Assembly: GCF_000165465.1 (NCBI RefSeq)
Contig: NC_017455.1
Span: 1,178,001 to 1,242,000, forward strand
From: Halanaerobium praevalens DSM 2228
GTDB lineage: Bacteria; Bacillota; Halanaerobiia; Halanaerobiales; Halanaerobiaceae
Length of the DNA: 64,000 nt
Direction: 5' to 3'
How positions within the stretch are numbered: position 1 is the first letter of the stretch; each line of letters opens with the position of its first letter. Positions 551 through 12,730 of this stretch are shown here, one piece after another. Under the pieces are notes generated by a model. It was not told the DNA's origin and did no database searches. It saw nothing but the letters and a program-made list of their open reading frames with translations. A program made the position numbers and the translations under genes.

Positions 551-676
551 ATAACGTTACTGGGATTTGCGCTCGTGCCTGGTTCTGGAAGAACTGGCGT
601 AAAGCTTGCTTCAATATTTCTTGCTGCTATTATTGCAAGCTTTATGACAGAAGTCATGACGCCAATCCCATGTTAT
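551..676 (-). repeat. attC-like site 1 (closes non-coding cassette 10)
   Basis: A 126-bp imperfect palindrome. The outer arms carry ATAAC, TGGGATT/AATCCCA and an inner AAGCTTGC/GCAAGCTT pair, with asymmetric unpaired segments between them, as in integron attC sites. It appears identical to site 8 at 6435-6560. Confidence 0.75.
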
Positions 677-1005
677 ATGCTGTAATAACTTGCCGCGTTA
701 AAAGTCATTCTTTACTTCAACTTACTGACTTCTGATATTAAATCTTGACCAGCAGATAAGTTCATAAATTCTGTACTATATTATATCTTCACGAAGTGCG
801 TGAAGATCGAACAGTGACTAATTTATCTTTTGATATATGTAAATAACTTTGTAGATCAAAATAATCCAGGTTAATTGGTAAAGCCGCTGAAAACTTACAA
901 TTATTATTTCCTTCATTTGCAGGAGTTAATACATCTCAGTTAGCGATGCCCCAACCCTTCTTTTATCTTTTTCTATTATTTGCTGATGTTTAGTTATTAT
1001 TGCAT
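677..1005 (-). other. Non-coding cassette body, copy A (cassette 10)
   Basis: This stretch of about 330 bp between two attC-like sites has no conserved reading frame on either strand. It contains a 9-bp perfect stem, ATCTTCACG/CGTGAAGAT, with a 5-nt loop at 785-807. Read on the minus strand it begins TGCAATAATAACTAAACATC and holds the family motif AGAAGGGTTGG...CATCG. The whole cassette 555-1009 appears identical to 6439-6893. Role unknown: it could be a small RNA, a promoter cassette or a structural spacer. Confidence 0.6.
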
Positions 1006-1160
1006 ATAACGTCCCTGGGATTTCCGACGTGCCTGTGCCCTTAGGCCTGGCGGAAAGATTGCCTTCCAGATTTCTTACTACCTTTATTGCAAGCTTTGTG
1101 ACAGAAGGCATGTCCCGAAGGGTAGGCTTGCTCTTTAGCCTAACGGCAATCCCATGTTAT
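1006..1160 (-). repeat. attC-like site 2 (closes non-coding cassette 9)
   Basis: A 155-bp palindromic site with outer arms CCTGGGATT/AATCCCA. It is longer than most because it carries extra sequence containing ATGTCCCGAAGGG, which is also present in site 4. Closest to site 4 in its central part. Confidence 0.7.
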
Positions 1161-1488
1161 ACGCTGTAATGATTTGCTGCGTAAAAGTTATTCCCTTCTT
1201 CAACTTACTGACTTTTGATATTAACTCTTACCCAGCAAAAAAGTTCATAAATTCTGTACTATATTACATCTTCACGAAGTGCGTGAAGATTGAACAGTGA
1301 CTAATTTTCTTTCTGATATATGTAAATAATTTTGTAAATTATAATTCTCCAAGTTCATTGTTAAAGCCACTTGAAACCTGCAATTATTATTTTCTTCATT
1401 TGCAGGAGTTAGTTCATGCCAGTTAGCGATGATCCAACCCTTCTCTTATCTTTTTCTCTTATTTGCTGATGTTTAATCATTATTGCGT
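1161..1488 (-). other. Non-coding cassette body, copy B (cassette 9)
   Basis: A diverged copy of the same non-coding family. The ATCTTCACG/CGTGAAGAT hairpin lies at 1268-1290, and the segment before it (TTCATAAATTCTGTACTATA) is unchanged between copies while other parts have drifted. No open frame is shared with the other copies. Confidence 0.6.
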
Positions 1489-1620
1489 ATAACGTCCCTG
1501 GCATCTTGCGACGTCAGTTGCTACTGCTATATAATCTTGATTGTCATACTAAATTTCATAAGTCATTGCCATATCCCAGCCATATCCTAGGCAACTGATG
1601 TCGTAAATGCCATGTTAAGC
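1489..1620 (-). repeat. attC-like site 3, divergent (closes nuclease cassette 8)
   Basis: A 132-bp site that keeps the layout but not the sequence of the others: outer arms TGGCAT/ATGCCA, inner arms CAGTTGC/GCAACTG, and junction bases TTAAGC rather than TTATnn at its 5' side. It lies 17 bp beyond the stop codon of the gene ending at 1638. Confidence 0.65.
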
Positions 1621-1637
1621 GACGTGCGTCTCTAATA

Positions 1638-2579
1638 TTAATTTCTTAATATATCTTTTATACTTTCACCATCTAGAAATTTTACTGGATAACTTTTATT
1701 GATTTTTTCTATAATTTTCTTTTTAGCATGATTTGTGTACTTACCAGAACAAATAATCAATAATTCTTTGATATGAAATCGATTATAAGAAGAATTTAAT
1801 TTTTTATCCACAGGAACATCAAAAGCATCTTCAATTTGATTAACAATTTCATTTAAATCACTTGTAGCGCTTCCTGACATATTACCTAACTTAACTTGAG
1901 CTCCACCATGAATTGTATTACCAAACTCATCTTCCTTTTTATAAAGAATATCCTTCCCAAATTCCTCTTTACCATGATTATATTCAACCTCTTTAAATAT
2001 TTTTTTTAAAGATGGAATAACTAAATTTAATGTGAATTCTTCTTCTGAATTAAAATCATTAATCTCTAATAAATTTTGATTTTCAGGAAAAATAGGATAG
2101 ATTATTTTTTTTAATATTTCACAGATAATATCTTCTATATTTCTTTTTTCAATATTATCTATTATATATTCAAAAGTTATAAGTTCTTCATCAGTATATA
2201 CATTTTGTATCATATCATTTTTTAAATTTATAAATTCTTCAATAAGATTAATCTTTTGAATTTCTTCATCTGAATCATTATTATTGCTAAATCCAAATTC
2301 ATAAATAATTTTATTACCTCTACGAACGATATCTCCCCAAAAATTATCCTGGTCAATTTGCACAGAAGTAAAATTCGTGCATGGAGTAATTTTTATATTT
2401 TCAGGTAAATATATAGCTTTAAATCCTTCTAAATAATCCTCTGTTATTGCTAAACAACCTTTTTCATAATAGAATTCTCTATCGTCTATCACAACGCCAA
2501 TTACTTCATCTAATATACTAACATTAGGATCTACAATACTTTCATCTTCTAAAATCAATCTAATTTGATTTTCTTTCAT
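1638..2579 (-). CDS. Mrr-like PD-(D/E)XK restriction endonuclease (cassette 8)
   Basis: A 313-residue protein with a good ribosome binding site (GGGGGA). The last 120 residues look like an Mrr-type nuclease domain: KEEFGKDILY supplies the acidic residue of the PD-(D/E)XK core and GAQVKLGN supplies the Q-x-K strand. The end, LLIICSGKYTNHAKKKI followed by VKFLDGESI, resembles the usual close of such domains. The first 190 residues are acidic and unrecognised, and may bind DNA or sense infection. It is the only gene between attC-like sites 3 and 4. By family it would cut foreign or modified DNA; the target is not predictable. The nuclease fold is a motif-based call. Confidence 0.75.
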   Translation of the reverse strand: MKENQIRLILEDESIVDPNVSILDEVIGVVIDDREFYYEKGCLAITEDYLEGFKAIYLPENIKITPCTNFTSVQIDQDNFWGDIVRRGNKIIYEFGFSNNNDSDEEIQKINLIEEFINLKNDMIQNVYTDEELITFEYIIDNIEKRNIEDIICEILKKIIYPIFPENQNLLEINDFNSEEEFTLNLVIPSLKKIFKEVEYNHGKEEFGKDILYKKEDEFGNTIHGGAQVKLGNMSGSATSDLNEIVNQIEDAFDVPVDKKLNSSYNRFHIKELLIICSGKYTNHAKKKIIEKINKSYPVKFLDGESIKDILRN

Positions 2580-2640
2580 TTGTTATTCCCCCTTATATAA
2601 TTAATTTCTAACATTATCTAAGAAAAATAATGCATGTCGC

Positions 2641-2816
2641 TTAACGTCCCGAGCATTTGCGACGTGGCTGTCCTGTTCTTTAGGTTGGCGCATCTCTTGC
2701 TCATCATCATTTTCAGCTTAAACAGCTGCAAGAGATGTGACAAAAGCCATGTCCCGAAGGGCGACGGCCGTTTTACTGCCAAATTTATAACTAAGTCAGC
2801 GCCAATGCTCTGTTAT
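2641..2816 (-). repeat. attC-like site 4 (closes non-coding cassette 7)
   Basis: At 176 bp this is the longest site. Its outer arms are GAGCATTTGCG/CGCCAATGCTC, its inner arms are CATCTCTTGC/GCAAGAGATG, and it includes an extra hairpin-prone insert with ATGTCCCGAAGGG as in site 2. Arm sequences differ from the other sites while complementarity is kept, which supports selection on structure. Confidence 0.7.
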
Positions 2817-3140
2817 GTGCTGTAATAATTTGCTGCGTTAAAAGTTACTCACTACTTCAACTTACTGAATGCTGATTTTAACTCTTAACCAGCAAAAAAG
2901 TTCATAAATTCTGTACTATATTAAATCTTCACGAAGTGCGTGAAGATCGAACAGTGACTAATTTACTCTCTGATATTTGTAAATATCTTTGTGAATTATA
3001 ATCATCCAAGTTAATTGTTAAAACCACTGAAAACTAACAATTATTATTTTCTTCATTTGCAGGAGTTAATCCATATCAGTTAGCGATGAACCAACCCTAT
3101 CACTTCTCTCTTTTTTGCTGATGTTCAATTATTATTGCAC
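2817..3140 (-). other. Non-coding cassette body, copy C (cassette 7)
   Basis: Third copy of the non-coding family, with the 23-nt hairpin at 2925-2947 and the GGGTTGG...CATCG motif (minus strand) near 3085-3100. It lies directly upstream of the nuclease gene of cassette 8. No conserved coding frame. Confidence 0.6.
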
Positions 3141-3269
3141 ATAACGTTACTGGGATTTGCGCTTGTGCCTGGTTCCGTTAGGAACTGGCGTAAAGCTTGC
3201 TTTTTCGTATCAGTGATTGGTTAGCCTGCAAGCTTTATGACAGAAGGCATGGCGCCAATCCCATGTTAT
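3141..3269 (-). repeat. attC-like site 5 (closes TPR cassette 6)
   Basis: A 129-bp member of the common type, with TGGGATT/AATCCCA outer arms and TAAAGCTTGC/GCAAGCTTTA inner arms. It begins 31 bp after the stop of the TPR gene. Confidence 0.75.
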
Positions 3270-3299
3270 ATGACGTACTTATCTATAAAAATCAAAAGA

Positions 3300-4877
3300 T
3301 TATTGTCTAGTTAATTTTTTAATAAAAAATTTATCAACATTATCTAGATTTATTATCATTATAAATAAAGTTTTTTCATTTTCTGATATATATAAATATC
3401 CTTTCTGGTTATCTTTTTTAAACTTCTCTGCACTACTAGAAAAATCAAATTTTTTAGTATACTTTTCTAAAGATGCTGCTCTATTAAACATTTCTCCATT
3501 AAACTTACATTCTTTACTACCCTGATACCAAAAACCTTGTATTATTTTTCCGGATTGCTTAATCTTTAATTCTTTTTCATTTTCAAATTTCCATAAACCG
3601 TCAATGATTATATTTTTATCAATAAGATTGAAATACGCTTTAGAATAATTTCTTAAAAACCTTTGTTTTATACCAGCATTTTTTATAATTTTTTCTTTTC
3701 TTTTTTCTTCATTATTTTCTAAATTTCTTAATCTATTAAGCTGATAACCTACATTTTCATGAGTATTATCTTCTAGCATCGCTTTATTAAGAACATCAGA
3801 AGCTTCTTTATAAAATCCAGAATTTATATAATCTTGAGCTAAATTTGCTGATGATAAAGTATTATTACATTTTTTTATAGATTTTTTATAGGCATCAATT
3901 TTCATTCCAGCTAAGTTTAATTTTCCATAAATTACACCAATATTGTTTAAAGCATAATTATACTCAAAATCAGAACTTACTAAATTATCATAATGTAATA
4001 ATGATAAATCATTAAATTCGCTTAAATTACTATATCCATACGCCATATTAAATATTTTTGATTTTTCTGATTTGAATTCCAATGCTTTTTCTAAAGCAAA
4101 CACTCTTAACTCTTTTTCATCAGCTTTTTTATAAAGCGAAGCAAGTGACTTATAATATATAAATAAAATATTTTCATCTGTTTCATTAGTTATTAATGAC
4201 ATGATCTTTTTATAAGCTTTTTTATTATTTAATTCAAAAACACACTCTGAACTAAAAATCATATCTTTTGCTTTTTGCAATAGATCAGTCGATTTTTCTG
4301 CTGCTTTTTCAAAATAATCTTTTGCTTTATTTAATCTATTATTTTTTTTATAACAGAAACCAATAATTCTCAATATATATTCTTCAACCTTAGGGTATTC
4401 ATTATTTTTTTCCAACTTTTTTAATTTTTCTAAAGCTTCTAAATCGCCTAAAAAGTAACTGAAATAAAGATAAATTGCAGTGTCTTCTGTTTTTTCTAAA
4501 CTTTCTGGTTTCTCTTCACTCATTTTTTTATATAAGTCATCTAATGACTCTTTATCTTTATCCAAGAATGCTATCTGTAATTTATCTTTCCAATTCTTAT
4601 CTTCTTCTTCATATTCTAAATTAATATCCATTTCTTCAGTTTCCATTAAACTAGAATCATCTTCTTGTGAAATATCTACTTCTTCACTAGTATTATTTTG
4701 TGAATCATTTTTGCTTTTTTTAACTTCTACTTCAGCATCTCTCATTTTAATTTTAAAATCTTTTCCTGTTAAAATCATTTTTAGTTCTTTTCTAAATATA
4801 ATGATAAGTATAAATACACAGATTATTAGAACTATTAACCATGATTCACCTATTGAAGTTATTAAGTCTTTAGACAT
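3300..4877 (-). CDS. Membrane-anchored TPR-repeat protein (cassette 6)
   Basis: Start chosen at the ATG at 4877 because GGGAGGAAA lies 8 nt upstream; the frame is open to 4910. The 525-residue protein starts MSKDLITS and has one membrane helix at about residues 8-28. A charged acidic linker follows, then about 250 residues of helical repeats with TPR-like spacing (for example NNEYPKVEEYILRIIGFCYK and NYALNNIGVIYGKLN), and a C-terminal part with alternating hydrophobic and charged residues that may be a small beta domain. No catalytic motif was seen. It probably sits in the membrane with the repeats in the cytoplasm as a protein-binding platform. Because its neighbours are nucleases and a HEPN protein, a role in phage sensing is possible but unproven. 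Confidence 0.6.
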   Translation of the reverse strand: MSKDLITSIGESWLIVLIICVFILIIIFRKELKMILTGKDFKIKMRDAEVEVKKSKNDSQNNTSEEVDISQEDDSSLMETEEMDINLEYEEEDKNWKDKLQIAFLDKDKESLDDLYKKMSEEKPESLEKTEDTAIYLYFSYFLGDLEALEKLKKLEKNNEYPKVEEYILRIIGFCYKKNNRLNKAKDYFEKAAEKSTDLLQKAKDMIFSSECVFELNNKKAYKKIMSLITNETDENILFIYYKSLASLYKKADEKELRVFALEKALEFKSEKSKIFNMAYGYSNLSEFNDLSLLHYDNLVSSDFEYNYALNNIGVIYGKLNLAGMKIDAYKKSIKKCNNTLSSANLAQDYINSGFYKEASDVLNKAMLEDNTHENVGYQLNRLRNLENNEEKRKEKIIKNAGIKQRFLRNYSKAYFNLIDKNIIIDGLWKFENEKELKIKQSGKIIQGFWYQGSKECKFNGEMFNRAASLEKYTKKFDFSSSAEKFKKDNQKGYLYISENEKTLFIMIINLDNVDKFFIKKLTRQ

Positions 4878-4910
4878 ATACATTTCCTCCCTATAAATTA
4901 AGTATGTCAT

Positions 4911-5040
4911 ATAACGTTACTGGGATTTTGCGCTCGTGCCTGTTTCCGCCAGGAACTGGCGTAAAGCTTGCGTTTTCATATCCGTTATTGGTTAACCTGC
5001 AAGCTTTATGACAGAAGGCATGGCGCCAATCCCATGTTAT
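4911..5040 (-). repeat. attC-like site 6 (closes nuclease cassette 5)
   Basis: A 130-bp member of the common type, very close to sites 5, 9 and 10. It lies 17 bp beyond the stop of the nuclease gene at 5058. Confidence 0.75.
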
Positions 5041-5057: not shown

Positions 5058-5978
5058 TTATAATAAACCATAGCCAAATAAATCTTTTACTCTTTCTCTT
5101 TCTTTTTCAGTCATTTCTCTTAATACCTTTTGTCCTATTGCTGTAAAAAAATGTTTAATTTTTTCATCTGTAACATCAGTAATAATATTAGTATTATCCT
5201 TATAAATATTCATGATACCAAATAGATATCTTAAATATACTGTAGGTTTAATTATATCACCAATATCTTCCCAAGAGCTTGTAAAACCAGAATCAACATA
5301 ATTTTTTTCTAATTTTCTATCGCATTCACCCTTACAAGCCCAATATATATCTTTATAAATAGTTTTTTCTATTTCTGAATCTTCATTACGTTCAACTTTT
5401 TTTACAAAAACTATATTGCTTCCATATTGGTTATTATATAAATCAGGAAGTAGATCTTTACCACAAACACTACACTCTAAAGGTAAATATTCATCTACTA
5501 TTAGATGTAAGGGTTTGATTTCTTTATAGTTTTCAGGTAAATACCTCATTAAAAGTTTTGAAAACCCTATTCTAATTAAATAGTTTTCAATAAGTTTATG
5601 ATCAAATATTTTATAGTCTTTAATATTTTTATTATTTTTTAGATCAAATAAACGCTTATTTAAATTAGAAGATGCTATAGTAGAATAAAAGCCAATAAAA
5701 CCATCTGCTTTAAAACTTCTTACCCGTTCCAAAATATTTTGTTCATTACTTTCATTTACTGCTCTATTACTATTAGCAAAGTTTTTACAACTAACTAACC
5801 ATTTGAATTTATATTTACCTAAATTGCCTGATATTTCTTCAGATACAAGTATATCTTTTCCATGATCATTTCCTCTATCTGGAGTTGATTCTATATAAAA
5901 ACCTACTTCTTGAAGAAAATCTCGAGCAAATAACTCCCATACTTCTCCATCTGGATCCAATTCACTAAAATCAATCAT
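5058..5978 (-). CDS. Restriction-endonuclease-like protein with zinc-binding motif (cassette 5)
   Basis: 306 residues with ribosome binding site GAGGTG. The N-terminal 110 residues look like a PD-(D/E)XK nuclease: an early acidic helix (EVWELFARDFLQEVGF), GNDHGKDILV with the metal-binding Asp, and FKWLVSCKNF with the C-K strand typical of Mrr-like enzymes. The middle has CSVCGKDL and, later, CKGEC, together a likely four-cysteine zinc site. The C-terminal part is helical and unrecognised. This is the second nuclease of the array but is not closely related to the first outside the core motif. It probably acts on DNA in defence; substrate specificity is unknown. Confidence 0.72.
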   Translation of the reverse strand: MIDFSELDPDGEVWELFARDFLQEVGFYIESTPDRGNDHGKDILVSEEISGNLGKYKFKWLVSCKNFANSNRAVNESNEQNILERVRSFKADGFIGFYSTIASSNLNKRLFDLKNNKNIKDYKIFDHKLIENYLIRIGFSKLLMRYLPENYKEIKPLHLIVDEYLPLECSVCGKDLLPDLYNNQYGSNIVFVKKVERNEDSEIEKTIYKDIYWACKGECDRKLEKNYVDSGFTSSWEDIGDIIKPTVYLRYLFGIMNIYKDNTNIITDVTDEKIKHFFTAIGQKVLREMTEKERERVKDLFGYGLL

Positions 5979-6010: not shown

Positions 6011-6134
6011 ATAACGATTCTGGGATTCGCGGTGTGCCCGGTGTCCACAGACCTGGAGCAAAGTTAGCTATCATATCCACAATTGTTTAAGTGCTGACTT
6101 TGTGCCAGAGGGCATGCCGTTAATCCCATGTTAT
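6011..6134 (-). repeat. attC-like site 7 (closes cassette 4)
   Basis: A 124-bp, more divergent site with outer arms TGGGATT/AATCCCA and a different centre (AAAGTTAGC on one side, GCTGACTTT on the other). The change in both inner arms keeps partial pairing. Confidence 0.68.
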
Positions 6135-6434
6135 CTGTCTGTTATGACAATATCGACTCTACTGCTTATCATTTATCTTCAAACTCCGAACCTCTATCTT
6201 CTTTTTTGCCACGGGCTTCCCGCAAAAAACCTTAACCATCAGTCGGAAGTTTTGAAGATAATGCTATAACCTATCATAAGATTGATCATGATCTTCCTCA
6301 GAGCACCAGGCTGAGATAAAAACTCTGCAGTTTCTATTTATCTTCCCCGAAGAAAGCTTAAAAATATCATCCACCGATGACCAAAAACCCTTCTCTTGGT
6401 CTTATTAGCTGCAGTGACATTGTCATAATGTCAG
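6135..6434 (-). other. Non-coding cassette body with large stem-loop (cassette 4)
   Basis: 300 bp with no credible gene on either strand. It contains a long composite hairpin (listed separately) and, on the minus strand at about 6384-6400, the motif GAGAAGGGTT...GG.CATCG shared with the other non-coding cassettes, here inside a GACCAA/TTGGTC stem. It looks like a distant member of the same non-coding group. Confidence 0.55.
6173..6261 (-). ncRNA. Possible structured RNA within cassette 4
   Basis: TTATCTTCAAACTCCGA at 6173-6189 pairs with TCGGAAGTTTTGAAGATAA at 6243-6261 over 17 bp with two single-base bulges. Inside it a second hairpin pairs TTTTTTGC with GCAAAAAA around GGG/CCC (6202-6229). 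The strand is taken from the orientation of the array; the structure itself would form on either strand. No promoter is assigned, and a DNA role is equally possible. Confidence 0.4.
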
Positions 6435-6560
6435 ATAACGTTACTGGGATTTGCGCTCGTGCCTGGTTCTGGAAGAACTGGCGTAAAGCTTGCTTCAATA
6501 TTTCTTGCTGCTATTATTGCAAGCTTTATGACAGAAGTCATGACGCCAATCCCATGTTAT
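6435..6560 (-). repeat. attC-like site 8 (closes non-coding cassette 3)
   Basis: A 126-bp common-type site, apparently identical to site 1. It belongs to the duplicated 455-bp cassette. Confidence 0.75.
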
Positions 6561-6889
6561 ATGCTGTAATAACTTGCCGCGTTAAAAGTCATTCTTTACT
6601 TCAACTTACTGACTTCTGATATTAAATCTTGACCAGCAGATAAGTTCATAAATTCTGTACTATATTATATCTTCACGAAGTGCGTGAAGATCGAACAGTG
6701 ACTAATTTATCTTTTGATATATGTAAATAACTTTGTAGATCAAAATAATCCAGGTTAATTGGTAAAGCCGCTGAAAACTTACAATTATTATTTCCTTCAT
6801 TTGCAGGAGTTAATACATCTCAGTTAGCGATGCCCCAACCCTTCTTTTATCTTTTTCTATTATTTGCTGATGTTTAGTTATTATTGCAT
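6561..6889 (-). other. Non-coding cassette body, copy D (cassette 3)
   Basis: Same sequence as 677-1005 by eye, including the hairpin (here 6669-6691). The identity covers the whole cassette 6439-6893 and stops at its borders. No coding frame is conserved with copies B and C. Confidence 0.6.
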
Positions 6890-7017
6890 ATAACGTTACT
6901 GGGATTTGCGCTCGTGTCTGGTTCCGCAGGAACTGGCGTAAAGCTTGCTTTTCCATATCCGTTATTGGTTAATCTGCAAGCTTTATGACAGAAGGCATGA
7001 CGCCAATCCCATGTTAT
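6890..7017 (-). repeat. attC-like site 9 (closes DUF4062 cassette 2)
   Basis: A 128-bp common-type site. It overlaps the end of the preceding gene: the TAA stop codon of the DUF4062 gene is the TAA within the ATAAC box of the site. Confidence 0.77.
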
Positions 7018-8135
7018 GCGTCGTTTTGCTGCACTTTATTATTAATATCATTGATAATATTATCTATCATTTTTTCTTTATAAATATCATATAAATCATT
7101 ATTTTTAATGATTTTATCTAACTCTAGATTTTTAAGTAGAAAAGTTTTAGGAAAATTGATTCCTTTTAAAGTTAAATTGATATCATTTTCTTTAAATTTA
7201 TTATTAATATTCTTTTTAGTTTCATCTCTCCATTTAGAAGTTATTTCGTCTTTTTCTTTTTCAGAAAATTTATCAACTGGTTTTTTGTAATTATTATAAA
7301 AATCATTACTTAAATATTCTTCTTCAATTATTTCAAGAATTTTTTCAGCTTTTTCTTGATCTATTTGAGCTTTTATTTCATTAAAGGTGAAGTTTGATAT
7401 AATTTTTTCTGAATAAAAACTAATTAATTTTTTATTTTGTTCTTCTAGTAATTTCTTATATTCTTCACTTTCATCTAATAATTGTTTCCCCATTTCATTA
7501 ACCATTTCATTAATACTATCTGTAACAATTTCTAATTTATCTATTGTATCAGTGATTCTGTTTTCCTTCTCATCTGTTCTTAATTTCTTTAAATATTGTT
7601 GAAATAATCCTGCCCATTGCTCTTTCAGTATTCTTTCAATGTCTTCAAATTTTTCAAATTTGAAAATAATATTATTGGCAAAATTCTCTTTTAATTCATC
7701 TACAAATTCATAAATATTAATACTATCTGAGTGAGCATAAGATATCTCTTCATTTCCTTTATTATTTAAGTATGTATAATATTCACTATTTACATTTTTT
7801 TCAATAAATATATATATTGGTATATTTTCCTGGTATGCAGTTCTATATTCTTGAGAAGTTATAGATGTGTATCTGTCATAAAATTTTTTCTTATCATTAT
7901 CATCTTCATCAATACTTGAGCCATATCTTCCCCCTACAATAAGTATTAACATATCGCAATTATCAATTTCATTAAAACATGATTTATCTAAAGATTGATT
8001 TGGTTCATATGTAATATTACCAAATTCATTTAGTATAGGTGTATAATTAAATTCTTCAATTAGTCTTTTCATATTTTCTCTTATGTATTTCAAATCATAA
8101 TATGTTGAACTAACAAAAATTCTTGGATTAGCCAT
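7014..8135 (-). CDS. DUF4062 domain protein (cassette 2)
   Basis: 373 residues with ribosome binding site GAGGGAGTG. The first 110 residues match the DUF4062 domain, a TIR-like flavodoxin-type fold: NPRIFVSSTYYDLKYIRE at the start, then CDMLILIVGGRYGS and TSITSQEYRTAY. Residues 180-370 are rich in Lys and Glu and likely form long helices or coiled coil, with no recognised effector domain. DUF4062 modules often form the N-terminus of NLR-like and other conflict proteins, so a sensing or signalling role against phage is plausible but inferred. Its stop codon lies inside attC-like site 9, showing how tightly gene and site are packed. Confidence 0.75.
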   Translation of the reverse strand: MANPRIFVSSTYYDLKYIRENMKRLIEEFNYTPILNEFGNITYEPNQSLDKSCFNEIDNCDMLILIVGGRYGSSIDEDDNDKKKFYDRYTSITSQEYRTAYQENIPIYIFIEKNVNSEYYTYLNNKGNEEISYAHSDSINIYEFVDELKENFANNIIFKFEKFEDIERILKEQWAGLFQQYLKKLRTDEKENRITDTIDKLEIVTDSINEMVNEMGKQLLDESEEYKKLLEEQNKKLISFYSEKIISNFTFNEIKAQIDQEKAEKILEIIEEEYLSNDFYNNYKKPVDKFSEKEKDEITSKWRDETKKNINNKFKENDINLTLKGINFPKTFLLKNLELDKIIKNNDLYDIYKEKMIDNIINDINNKVQQNDA

Positions 8136-10291: not shown

Positions 10292-10340
10292 GTCGTATAA
10301 CTCAATTATTTGTGTAAAACATTTCATTATTTGTAGAAAT
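10292..10340 (-). other. attI-like recombination junction
   Basis: Between the recombinase remnant and the first cassette, the minus strand reads GTTATACGACATCG (10288-10301), the same core as the cassette junctions (GTTATnnGACAT). On the recombinase side two direct copies of ATTATTTGT lie at 10305-10313 and 10326-10334, 21 bp apart, where integron attI sites carry accessory binding repeats. There is no palindrome on this side, unlike the attC-like sites. The call rests on position and core sequence. Confidence 0.5.
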
Positions 10341-10387
10341 GCTGGATCTTCACGACTGTTATTTCGGTAAAATCTTTATTCTGTTAA

Positions 10388-11546
<1,159 letters not shown>

Positions 11547-11584
11547 AGGAAATTGATCTCTGTGGTCCCGGATAAAACCGTATA

Positions 11585-11893
11585 TTACTTCGGTTTTTTC
11601 GAAAAGATGCCCACTGCTTTTTTTAATATATCACGCTCTAATTTAGTTTCTCTAAGTTCATCTTCAAGCTCTTTTATTTTTTGTTGTTCAGGTGTTAGTT
11701 TTTGCTTTCCATTACCAGGAAAAGCATGTTCACCACTATCTCTATATTCTTTACGCCAGCGGGTTAAATTACCGTAATTTATTCCTAGATCATCAGCTAT
11801 TTCTTGTACTGTCTTATTTGAATTTATGCTAAGTTCAACAGCATCTCTTTTGAATTCTTCAGTGTAACTTCTTCTTTTTCCCATTTTGGGCAC
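11585..11893 (-). CDS. IS3-family transposase OrfA
   Basis: 102 residues. A helix-turn-helix DNA-binding domain ([15 protein letters not shown] through [14 protein letters not shown]) is followed by a leucine-zipper-like helix ([20 protein letters not shown]) and the usual IS3 ending [12 protein letters not shown]. It binds the IS ends and is the first half of the OrfAB transposase. Ribosome binding site AGGAGGTGCCC precedes it. Three to four residues before the stop the run of six A at 11594-11599 offers a -1 frameshift into OrfB, after which the frame reads [17 protein letters not shown]. Confidence 0.93.
11594..11599 (-). other. Probable -1 frameshift site of the IS
   Basis: Six consecutive A on the coding strand just before the OrfA stop. 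Slippage by one base joins ...GIFSKK to TEVIYGF, the joint expected for IS3-family OrfAB fusions. A longer run of seven A lies slightly upstream and could serve instead. Confidence 0.6.
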
Positions 11894-11948
11894 CTCCTGA
11901 GTTTATTATATATCTTAACTCAGTGTCCTACAAATTGGGGGAGGGTCA

Positions 11949-12730
11949 CTTACATAAAGCCTAAGCTTAGTTAAAGCTTCTTTAGATAGCAAAGTGTACC
12001 TATCTTTATATCCCTTAGCAGAACGAATATAAAGCAGCATTCGCTCTGAATCAATATCAGATAGTTTAAGCCTTACAACTTCACTTACTCTTAAACCAGC
12101 AGAATAAGTTAAAATCAAGATAAGTTGATGTTTTAAATTATCAACAGCTGCAATAATATCTTTAACCTCTTTTTTGTTTAAAACCTGAGGTAATTTCTTT
12201 TTCTTTTTTGGCCTCAGTAGTTTATTATTAATTCCATCTAATTTTAAAATCAAAGTATTAAAAGTTTTAAAAGCACTAATAAATTGATTAGCATAAGAAT
12301 GAGTATTATTTAATTCTTCTAATAAAAATAAAATATAATCATTAACATCATTCTTTTTGATACTAAACAGATCTTTTTTTAGATATCTAATAAATGACTT
12401 ATTATGATTTAAATAAGCTTTAATTGAGTTTGGAGAATAGCCTTTAATTTTTAGCTTTTTTTCAAATTGAGGTAAATAATAATTAATCAAATAATTAGCA
12501 ATCAGTTCTGGGCCAGCAAAGTTTTTTAGTTCTGAATCAAAAATCAGATAATGCTTTTTAAACATTTCCAAAAAAAGAGCCAGATTATTAGAATTATTGG
12601 CAAAAGTCCAATATCTTTTTTTAGGATTCCAGCGACTCCCCGGAATTGAATTAATTTTTTTAACCACTACTTTATCATAATCAAAGCTCAGACAAATTAA
12701 ATCTTTAGTTTTATTTAACTTTAACCTCAT
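11949..12730 (-). pseudogene. Tyrosine recombinase of the array, N-terminal fragment
   Basis: 260 residues, then 11 IS-encoded residues to a stop. Residues 1-60 are an extra domain with PGSRWNPKKRYWTF, reminiscent of the HARP-type motif found ahead of some XerA-like recombinases. A SAM-like core-binding domain (LKIKGYSPNSIKAYLNHNKS) follows, then the start of the catalytic domain with YSAGLRVSEVVRLKLSDID (catalytic Arg) and RSAKGYKDRYTLLS (Lys). With the C-terminal fragment it made a 361-residue enzyme. It reads in the same direction as the cassettes. It is the best candidate for the recombinase that built the array, and is now inactive unless the IS excises precisely. Confidence 0.85.

Follow-up and report, generated by a model that had tools for sequence, protein, structure and literature searches.

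Gene-less cassettes with an attI-like dyad in an integron-like cassette array of Halanaerobium praevalens

Why mobile arrays hold gene-less cassettes is an open question, to which the answer shown elsewhere is that they supply promoters. Promoter activity of such cassettes is well established (PMC11014356, PMC6557892), and their promoters are not reliably predicted in silico (PMC11014356). The gene-less cassettes of Vibrio superintegrons and of oral Treponema integrons are bounded by attC sites, hold no open reading frame (ORF) of useful size and lie among coding cassettes (PMC11014356, PMC6557892). Cassettes with attI-derived sequence are also known, as the delta-attI-type cassettes of mobile integrons, in which that sequence is the recombining site of resistance cassettes (PMC12901181). 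Integrons and integrases are not mentioned in the report of the Halanaerobium praevalens GSL genome (PMC3156398). Here, we analyzed a window of 64,000 nucleotides of H. praevalens DSM 2228 (NC_017455.1, positions 1,178,001 to 1,242,000), in which a first-pass annotation had pointed out four repeats of ~330 bp with a conserved hairpin.

According to our analysis, the four repeats are gene-less cassettes belonging to an integron-like array. Sequence comparison within the window and the genome confirmed the four bodies at 677-1005, 1161-1488, 2817-3140, and 6561-6889 and identified them as real cassette bodies, here named family F1. The units of F1 and a neighboring second gene-less family, F2, are as follows.

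552 to 675, minus strand: attC-like site of F1 copy 1
676 to 1006, minus strand: F1 copy 1, gene-less cassette body, identical to 6560-6890
1007 to 1159, minus strand: attC-like site of F1 copy 2
1160 to 1489, minus strand: F1 copy 2, gene-less cassette body
2642 to 2815, minus strand: attC-like site of F1 copy 3, with the L box GAGCATT
2816 to 3141, minus strand: F1 copy 3, gene-less cassette body, identical to the copy at G000:C1:1175092-1175417
6134 to 6435, minus strand: second gene-less family, F2
6436 to 6559, minus strand: attC-like site of F1 copy 4
6560 to 6890, minus strand: F1 copy 4, gene-less cassette body

The bodies at 677-1005 and 6561-6889 are 100% identical, and the other two are 85 to 87% identical to them. 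In this genome (G000, 2,309,262 bases), F1 is present in 17 nearly full-length copies split over two arrays and accounts for roughly a third of the ~54 cassettes; the remainder of the ~45 copies lie in six other Halanaerobium genomes, and the alignment set comprised 46 placements, corresponding to 41 distinct sequences. Some copies are identical duplicates, others degenerate or partial. Among 61 related genomes, we found F1 in none outside Halanaerobium, nor did it turn up in the plasmid, phage, and IMG/VR searches, the last queried with a 20-base core; in the genome collection, the named contigs carrying this core all belong to Halanaerobium. The earlier claim that the repeats share no conserved reading frame is borne out: whichever of the six frames is read, the median open stretch through the hairpin does not exceed 31 codons and the shortest is 13 codons or fewer, and no ORF longer than ~70 amino acids lies between the attC-like sites. 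A short conserved peptide near the right end of F1 (ATGCCCCAACCCTTC...) was discarded because its start codon and length vary across the aligned copies, and no tRNA was found. Each repeat had further been placed upstream of a coding cassette or of another of its kind, a statement that required correction: the sense strand of the array is the minus strand, and the downstream neighbor of copy 4 (6561-6889) is F2 at 6134-6435, neither a coding cassette nor a further F1 copy. A two-cassette block consisting of F1 and a cassette for a 536-amino-acid TPR-like protein occurs twice in the same array (2816-4911 and G000:C1:1175092-1177187). A preference of F1 for the first position was dropped, since about 4 of 10 arrays have F1 beside attI, which is close to the overall frequency of F1.

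Array 1 spans ~1159.6-1186.3 kb of G000:C1, with its recombinase end in the window, while array 2 spans ~1510-1539.9 kb and has an attI at its end. This terminal attI match (G000:C1:1539873-1539949) scores 57 bits, with an F1 cassette in first position; no recombinase gene was found beside it. Each of the four F1 bodies in the window lies exactly between two hairpin-forming sites of ~90 to 180 bp with TAACG at the 5' end and GTTA at the 3' end, and each unit reads on the minus strand as the body followed by its own attC-like site. Across the loci examined, motif rules called 132 attC-like sites with AAC/GTT boxes and hairpin folds, as expected of an integron. Their geometry differs from that of canonical attC sites, relative to which the extra base and the spacer asymmetry are presumably reversed here. 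From the start of the attC-like site through the end of the body, no difference separates copies 1 and 4, which diverge at both boundaries; identity confined between unit boundaries is the behavior expected of mobile units and, as far as sequence can tell, matches that of integron cassettes. The suggestion of a noncoding cassette spread by recombination is thereby upheld, F1 forming precise cassette units in many contexts and several species. A feature that sets the cassettes studied here apart from integron cassettes is an 18-bp terminal stem containing a fixed G-T pair, in which the first ~18 bases of a cassette pair with its own last ~18 bases. Among 66 coding cassettes, pairing with the own end at positions 13 to 16 amounts to 0.80 to 0.91, compared with 0.23 to 0.29 for random partners; 11.6 of the 16 outer positions pair with the own end and 6.2 with the ends of others. 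At position 11, 92% of the cassettes have a G-T pair and none has a Watson-Crick pair. The cassette genes at 7014-8135 and 5058-5978, which gave a DUF4062 protein (Pfam, above the cut-off) and a weak match to Mrr_cat (restriction-endonuclease-like), are possibly defense genes; the PADLOC defense-family models matched none of five cassette proteins.

At its recombinase end, the window array contains the following features.

10297 to 10375, minus strand: attI of the window array, with half-sites and crossover ..GAGTTATACGAC, located with the attI profile
10388 to 10720, minus strand: C-terminal part of a XerA-like tyrosine recombinase whose gene is interrupted by an insertion sequence
11915 to 12730, minus strand: N-terminal part of the same recombinase gene, with an extra N-terminal domain

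The recombinase gene (10388-12730) is split by an IS3-type insertion sequence, in which 10713-11893 encodes the apparent transposase; the same element truncates an F1 copy at G000:C1 ~1162007. Intact relatives of the recombinase have 361 to 368 residues. In its core-binding and catalytic domains, the recombinase matches XerA-like proteins best. The known counterparts are XerA/XerC-like recombinases of archaeal type (PDB 4a8e, 5hxy; NF040815), from which the array recombinase differs in being tied to cassette arrays and in its extra ~85 N-terminal residues, whose weak likeness to a HARP domain is below the Pfam cut-off. The segment specific to IntI is absent: the alignment of IntI4 (PDB 2a3v) with a profile built from seven relatives falls into two pieces, with 22 recombinase residues facing IntI4 residues 178-239 (60 residues), and the matches of TIGR02249 to the array recombinases are below the cut-off and broken between ~177-188 and ~230. 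As in IntI-attI-attC integrons, a recombinase gene, an adjacent attI with several half-sites, and cassettes ending in foldable sites with AAC/GTT boxes are present; unlike in integrons, the recombinase is devoid of the IntI insert, carries the extra N-terminal domain, and is encoded by a gene pointing towards the array. Relatives were detected in 26 of 59 genomes of the class (E <= 1e-40) and in 18 of 299 genomes sampled from the phylum (E <= 1e-65), and most of the arrays examined beside them share GTTAnnnGA terminal repeats and the fixed mismatch. Integron-like platforms that combine this recombinase family with GTTAnnnGA cassettes whose ends keep a fixed mismatch occur in many Bacillota genera (loci L125-L135 and L145-L151).

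As in integrons, attI corresponds to the stretch from the recombinase stop codon to the first cassette, both in Halanaerobium and in further genera. It is conserved across nine arrays of Halanaerobium, including one whose recombinase gene has been lost, and reads in sense direction TTAACGAAAT..CGTGAAGAT..TAATGAA..TTCGCAAA..GTTAT. In many other genera, attI has related ACGAA/TTCG pairs adjoining the GTTA crossover, ATCTTCACGAAATACGTAAAGAT in G025 being one example, with a half-site a few bases from GTTA. Inspection of the aligned attIs by eye for a Pc promoter revealed no conserved -35/-10 pair. The elements of F1 to be compared with attI are located as follows.

785 to 807, strand unspecified: 23-bp recombinase-type dyad ATCTTCACGAAGTGCGTGAAGAT in F1 copy 1, the hairpin of the first-pass annotation
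1268 to 1290: same dyad in F1 copy 2
2925 to 2947: same dyad in F1 copy 3
6669 to 6691: same dyad in F1 copy 4
775 to 804, minus (sense) strand: TTCACG-18-TATAGT in copy 1, overlapping the dyad
1258 to 1287: TTCACG-18-TATAGT in copy 2
2915 to 2944: TTCACG-18-TATAGT in copy 3
6659 to 6688: TTCACG-18-TATAGT in copy 4

The hairpin is laid out as ATCTTCACG-AAGTG-CGTGAAGAT. That its arms ATCTTCACG/CGTGAAGAT and the block TACTATATT stay nearly unchanged was confirmed, their mean pairwise column identity being 0.96 and 0.97, respectively, versus 0.78 for the rest, and no other 23-column window of F1 is conserved as well as the dyad. A profile of the nine Halanaerobium attIs matches all 31 non-redundant F1 copies, with a mean best score of 9.0 bits compared with 0.02 (sd 0.59, maximum 3.2) in 300 column-block shuffles, and 26 of the 31 best matches share one location on the sense strand. 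Over ~65 bp including three half-sites, the F1 consensus can be aligned with the attI of G013, a member of another genus (score 59 versus a maximum of 52 in 2000 shuffles), and the half-sites of F1 follow the order and orientation found in attI. When the nine Halanaerobium attIs were compared singly with the F1 consensus, only three clearly exceeded the shuffles, and those designated ownA and ownB did not align there. In our view, the F1 hairpin looks like an attI-type recombinase-binding dyad, that is, a DNA docking site rather than a functional RNA, and its position and conservation suggest that the recombinase would bind it. F1 is deemed less likely to be a working internal entry site, since many copies have lost the attI-like crossover GTTA and none was seen to be split by a cassette inserted at the attI-like site, the one truncated copy inspected being cut by an insertion sequence. 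In carrying attI-derived sequence F1 resembles the delta-attI-type cassettes (PMC12901181), from which it is distinguished by the location of this stretch inside the body, its decayed crossover, and its attC-like flanks.

The exact half-site TTCGTGAAGAT has 16 matches in the 2.3-Mb genome, all inside the two arrays. It occurs 20 times in 7.1 kb of F1 and 7 times in 5.9 kb of a further gene-less family, F3, and was absent from 70 coding cassettes (93 kb) and from 47 kb of flanks; no half-site was found within one mismatch upstream of the recombinase gene. A host regulator with a wider regulon was rejected in view of this restriction of exact TTCGTGAAGAT to arrays and of the lack of any half-site within one mismatch upstream of the recombinase. 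F3 is ~800 bp long, unrelated to F1, and present in four genomes (G001, G005, G006, and G011), with a related unit in this genome; its half-sites are spaced as in attI. At L086, L088, L092, and L081, F3 resembles a fused dimer in which each unit has recombinase-type half-sites. F2, which had no TTCGTRAAGAT half-site within two mismatches, measures 302 to 316 bp and occurs in several Halanaerobium genomes; it has the right end in common with F1 and contains a spaced inverted repeat (ATTTATCTTCAAACTCCGA / TCGGAAGTTTTGAAGATAA).

F1 might instead be a plain promoter cassette, whose dyad would be an operator or an incidental overlap with no role in recombinase binding, a reading that we rate below an even chance. 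A promoter-bearing cassette had been proposed in the first-pass annotation, and its conserved part stands: TTCACG-18-TATAGT is kept on the sense strand in every window copy, and the -10-like part (TACTATATT) is conserved as strongly as the dyad. By consensus the element is weak (9/12 matches to sigma-70, with a poor -35-like hexamer, 4/6), and promoter-like sites are no commoner than in shuffles; the predicted promoter is a possible one. Nearly all long cassette ORFs lie on one common strand, the gene-less cassettes of Vibrio mostly have sense-strand promoters (PMC11014356), and those of oral Treponema have promoters (PMC6557892); a promoter reading into the next cassette, predicted in the case of F1, may be common to these systems and F1. 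What promoter function leaves unexplained is that attI and F3 share the half-sites with F1 and not the -10/-35 arrangement, and that the exact half-site is restricted to arrays, with no wider regulon. Since nothing resembling the -10-like arrangement is conserved in attI or was seen in F3, it looks like an addition specific to F1.

A structured regulatory RNA with the hairpin as its functional part, also suggested earlier, is deemed very improbable. Integron-borne regulatory RNAs do exist (reviewed in PMC8876359), and for both strands the F1 consensus folds more stably than column-shuffled alignments do (z of -4.9 and -6.7). However, the Rfam scan of F1 was empty, and in the covariance analysis with more copies the hairpin pairs never covary. 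Convincing compensatory pairs are confined to the cassette ends, where their total is within the shuffle range, and since this covariation of the end-to-end stem is also seen in all coding cassettes, it is a property of the recombination site rather than of an RNA made from F1. Furthermore, F3 and attI hold the same motif without the hairpin arrangement of F1, and a riboswitch proposed in another integron context turned out to be the attI1 site (PMC8876359).

The high copy number, the identical duplicates, and the degenerate or partial copies would suit a neutral or selfish passenger, namely a captured attI fragment spread by cassette duplication with no host function. We consider this unlikely, since a 34-bp block is near-invariant while the rest drifts to 0.78 identity and since the same half-sites are kept in two unrelated gene-less families; selfish spread and recombinase docking are nevertheless compatible, and docking could be the route of spreading.

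On balance, we think it fairly probable that F1 is a gene-less cassette with a captured attI-like recombinase-binding module, serving as a docking site and perhaps as a recombinase-controlled promoter. The captured module would comprise a pair of inverted half-sites for the tyrosine recombinase of the array itself; past them, on the sense strand, come the conserved -10-like element and the decayed remainder of attI. F1 would act in cis, on DNA, with the recombinase docking on the dyad within the array. A promoter directed into the next downstream cassette probably overlaps the docking site and could be controlled by the docking. This reading draws on features visible in the sequence, namely the cassette status of F1, its similarity to attI, and the conservation and array restriction of its half-sites, to which binding of the dyad by the recombinase and promoter activity are added by inference. 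The interruption of the window array's own recombinase gene by an insertion sequence counts against this reading, as do the lack of a half-site within one mismatch upstream of that gene, the small number of single attIs that clearly exceed shuffles, the decayed crossover, and the poor -35-like hexamer.

In ordinary terms, F1 is a gene-less integron-type cassette, a known kind. Unlike the gene-less cassettes of Vibrio and Treponema, it is one family of ~45 copies in seven Halanaerobium genomes, with an attI-like dyad. The unusual aspects are the attI-like module common to two unrelated gene-less families and the platform itself, of which we found no description in the open-access literature, subscription papers being outside the scope of the search. 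The presence of an apparent recombinase-binding motif in both families suggests a role in recruiting or sensing the recombinase. More speculatively, and on balance doubtfully, gene-less cassettes across Bacillota may be portable attI binding modules that recruit the recombinase in arrays and couple shuffling to transcription; if so, these cassettes would be recombinase-controlled mobile promoters, on a platform whose XerA-like recombinase lacks the IntI insert. The host platform is integron-like, differing from integrons in its recombinase and in the architecture of its cassette ends, and is found in many Bacillota genera; since searches requiring the IntI-specific domain would miss its recombinase, cassette arrays in Bacillota may be undercounted.
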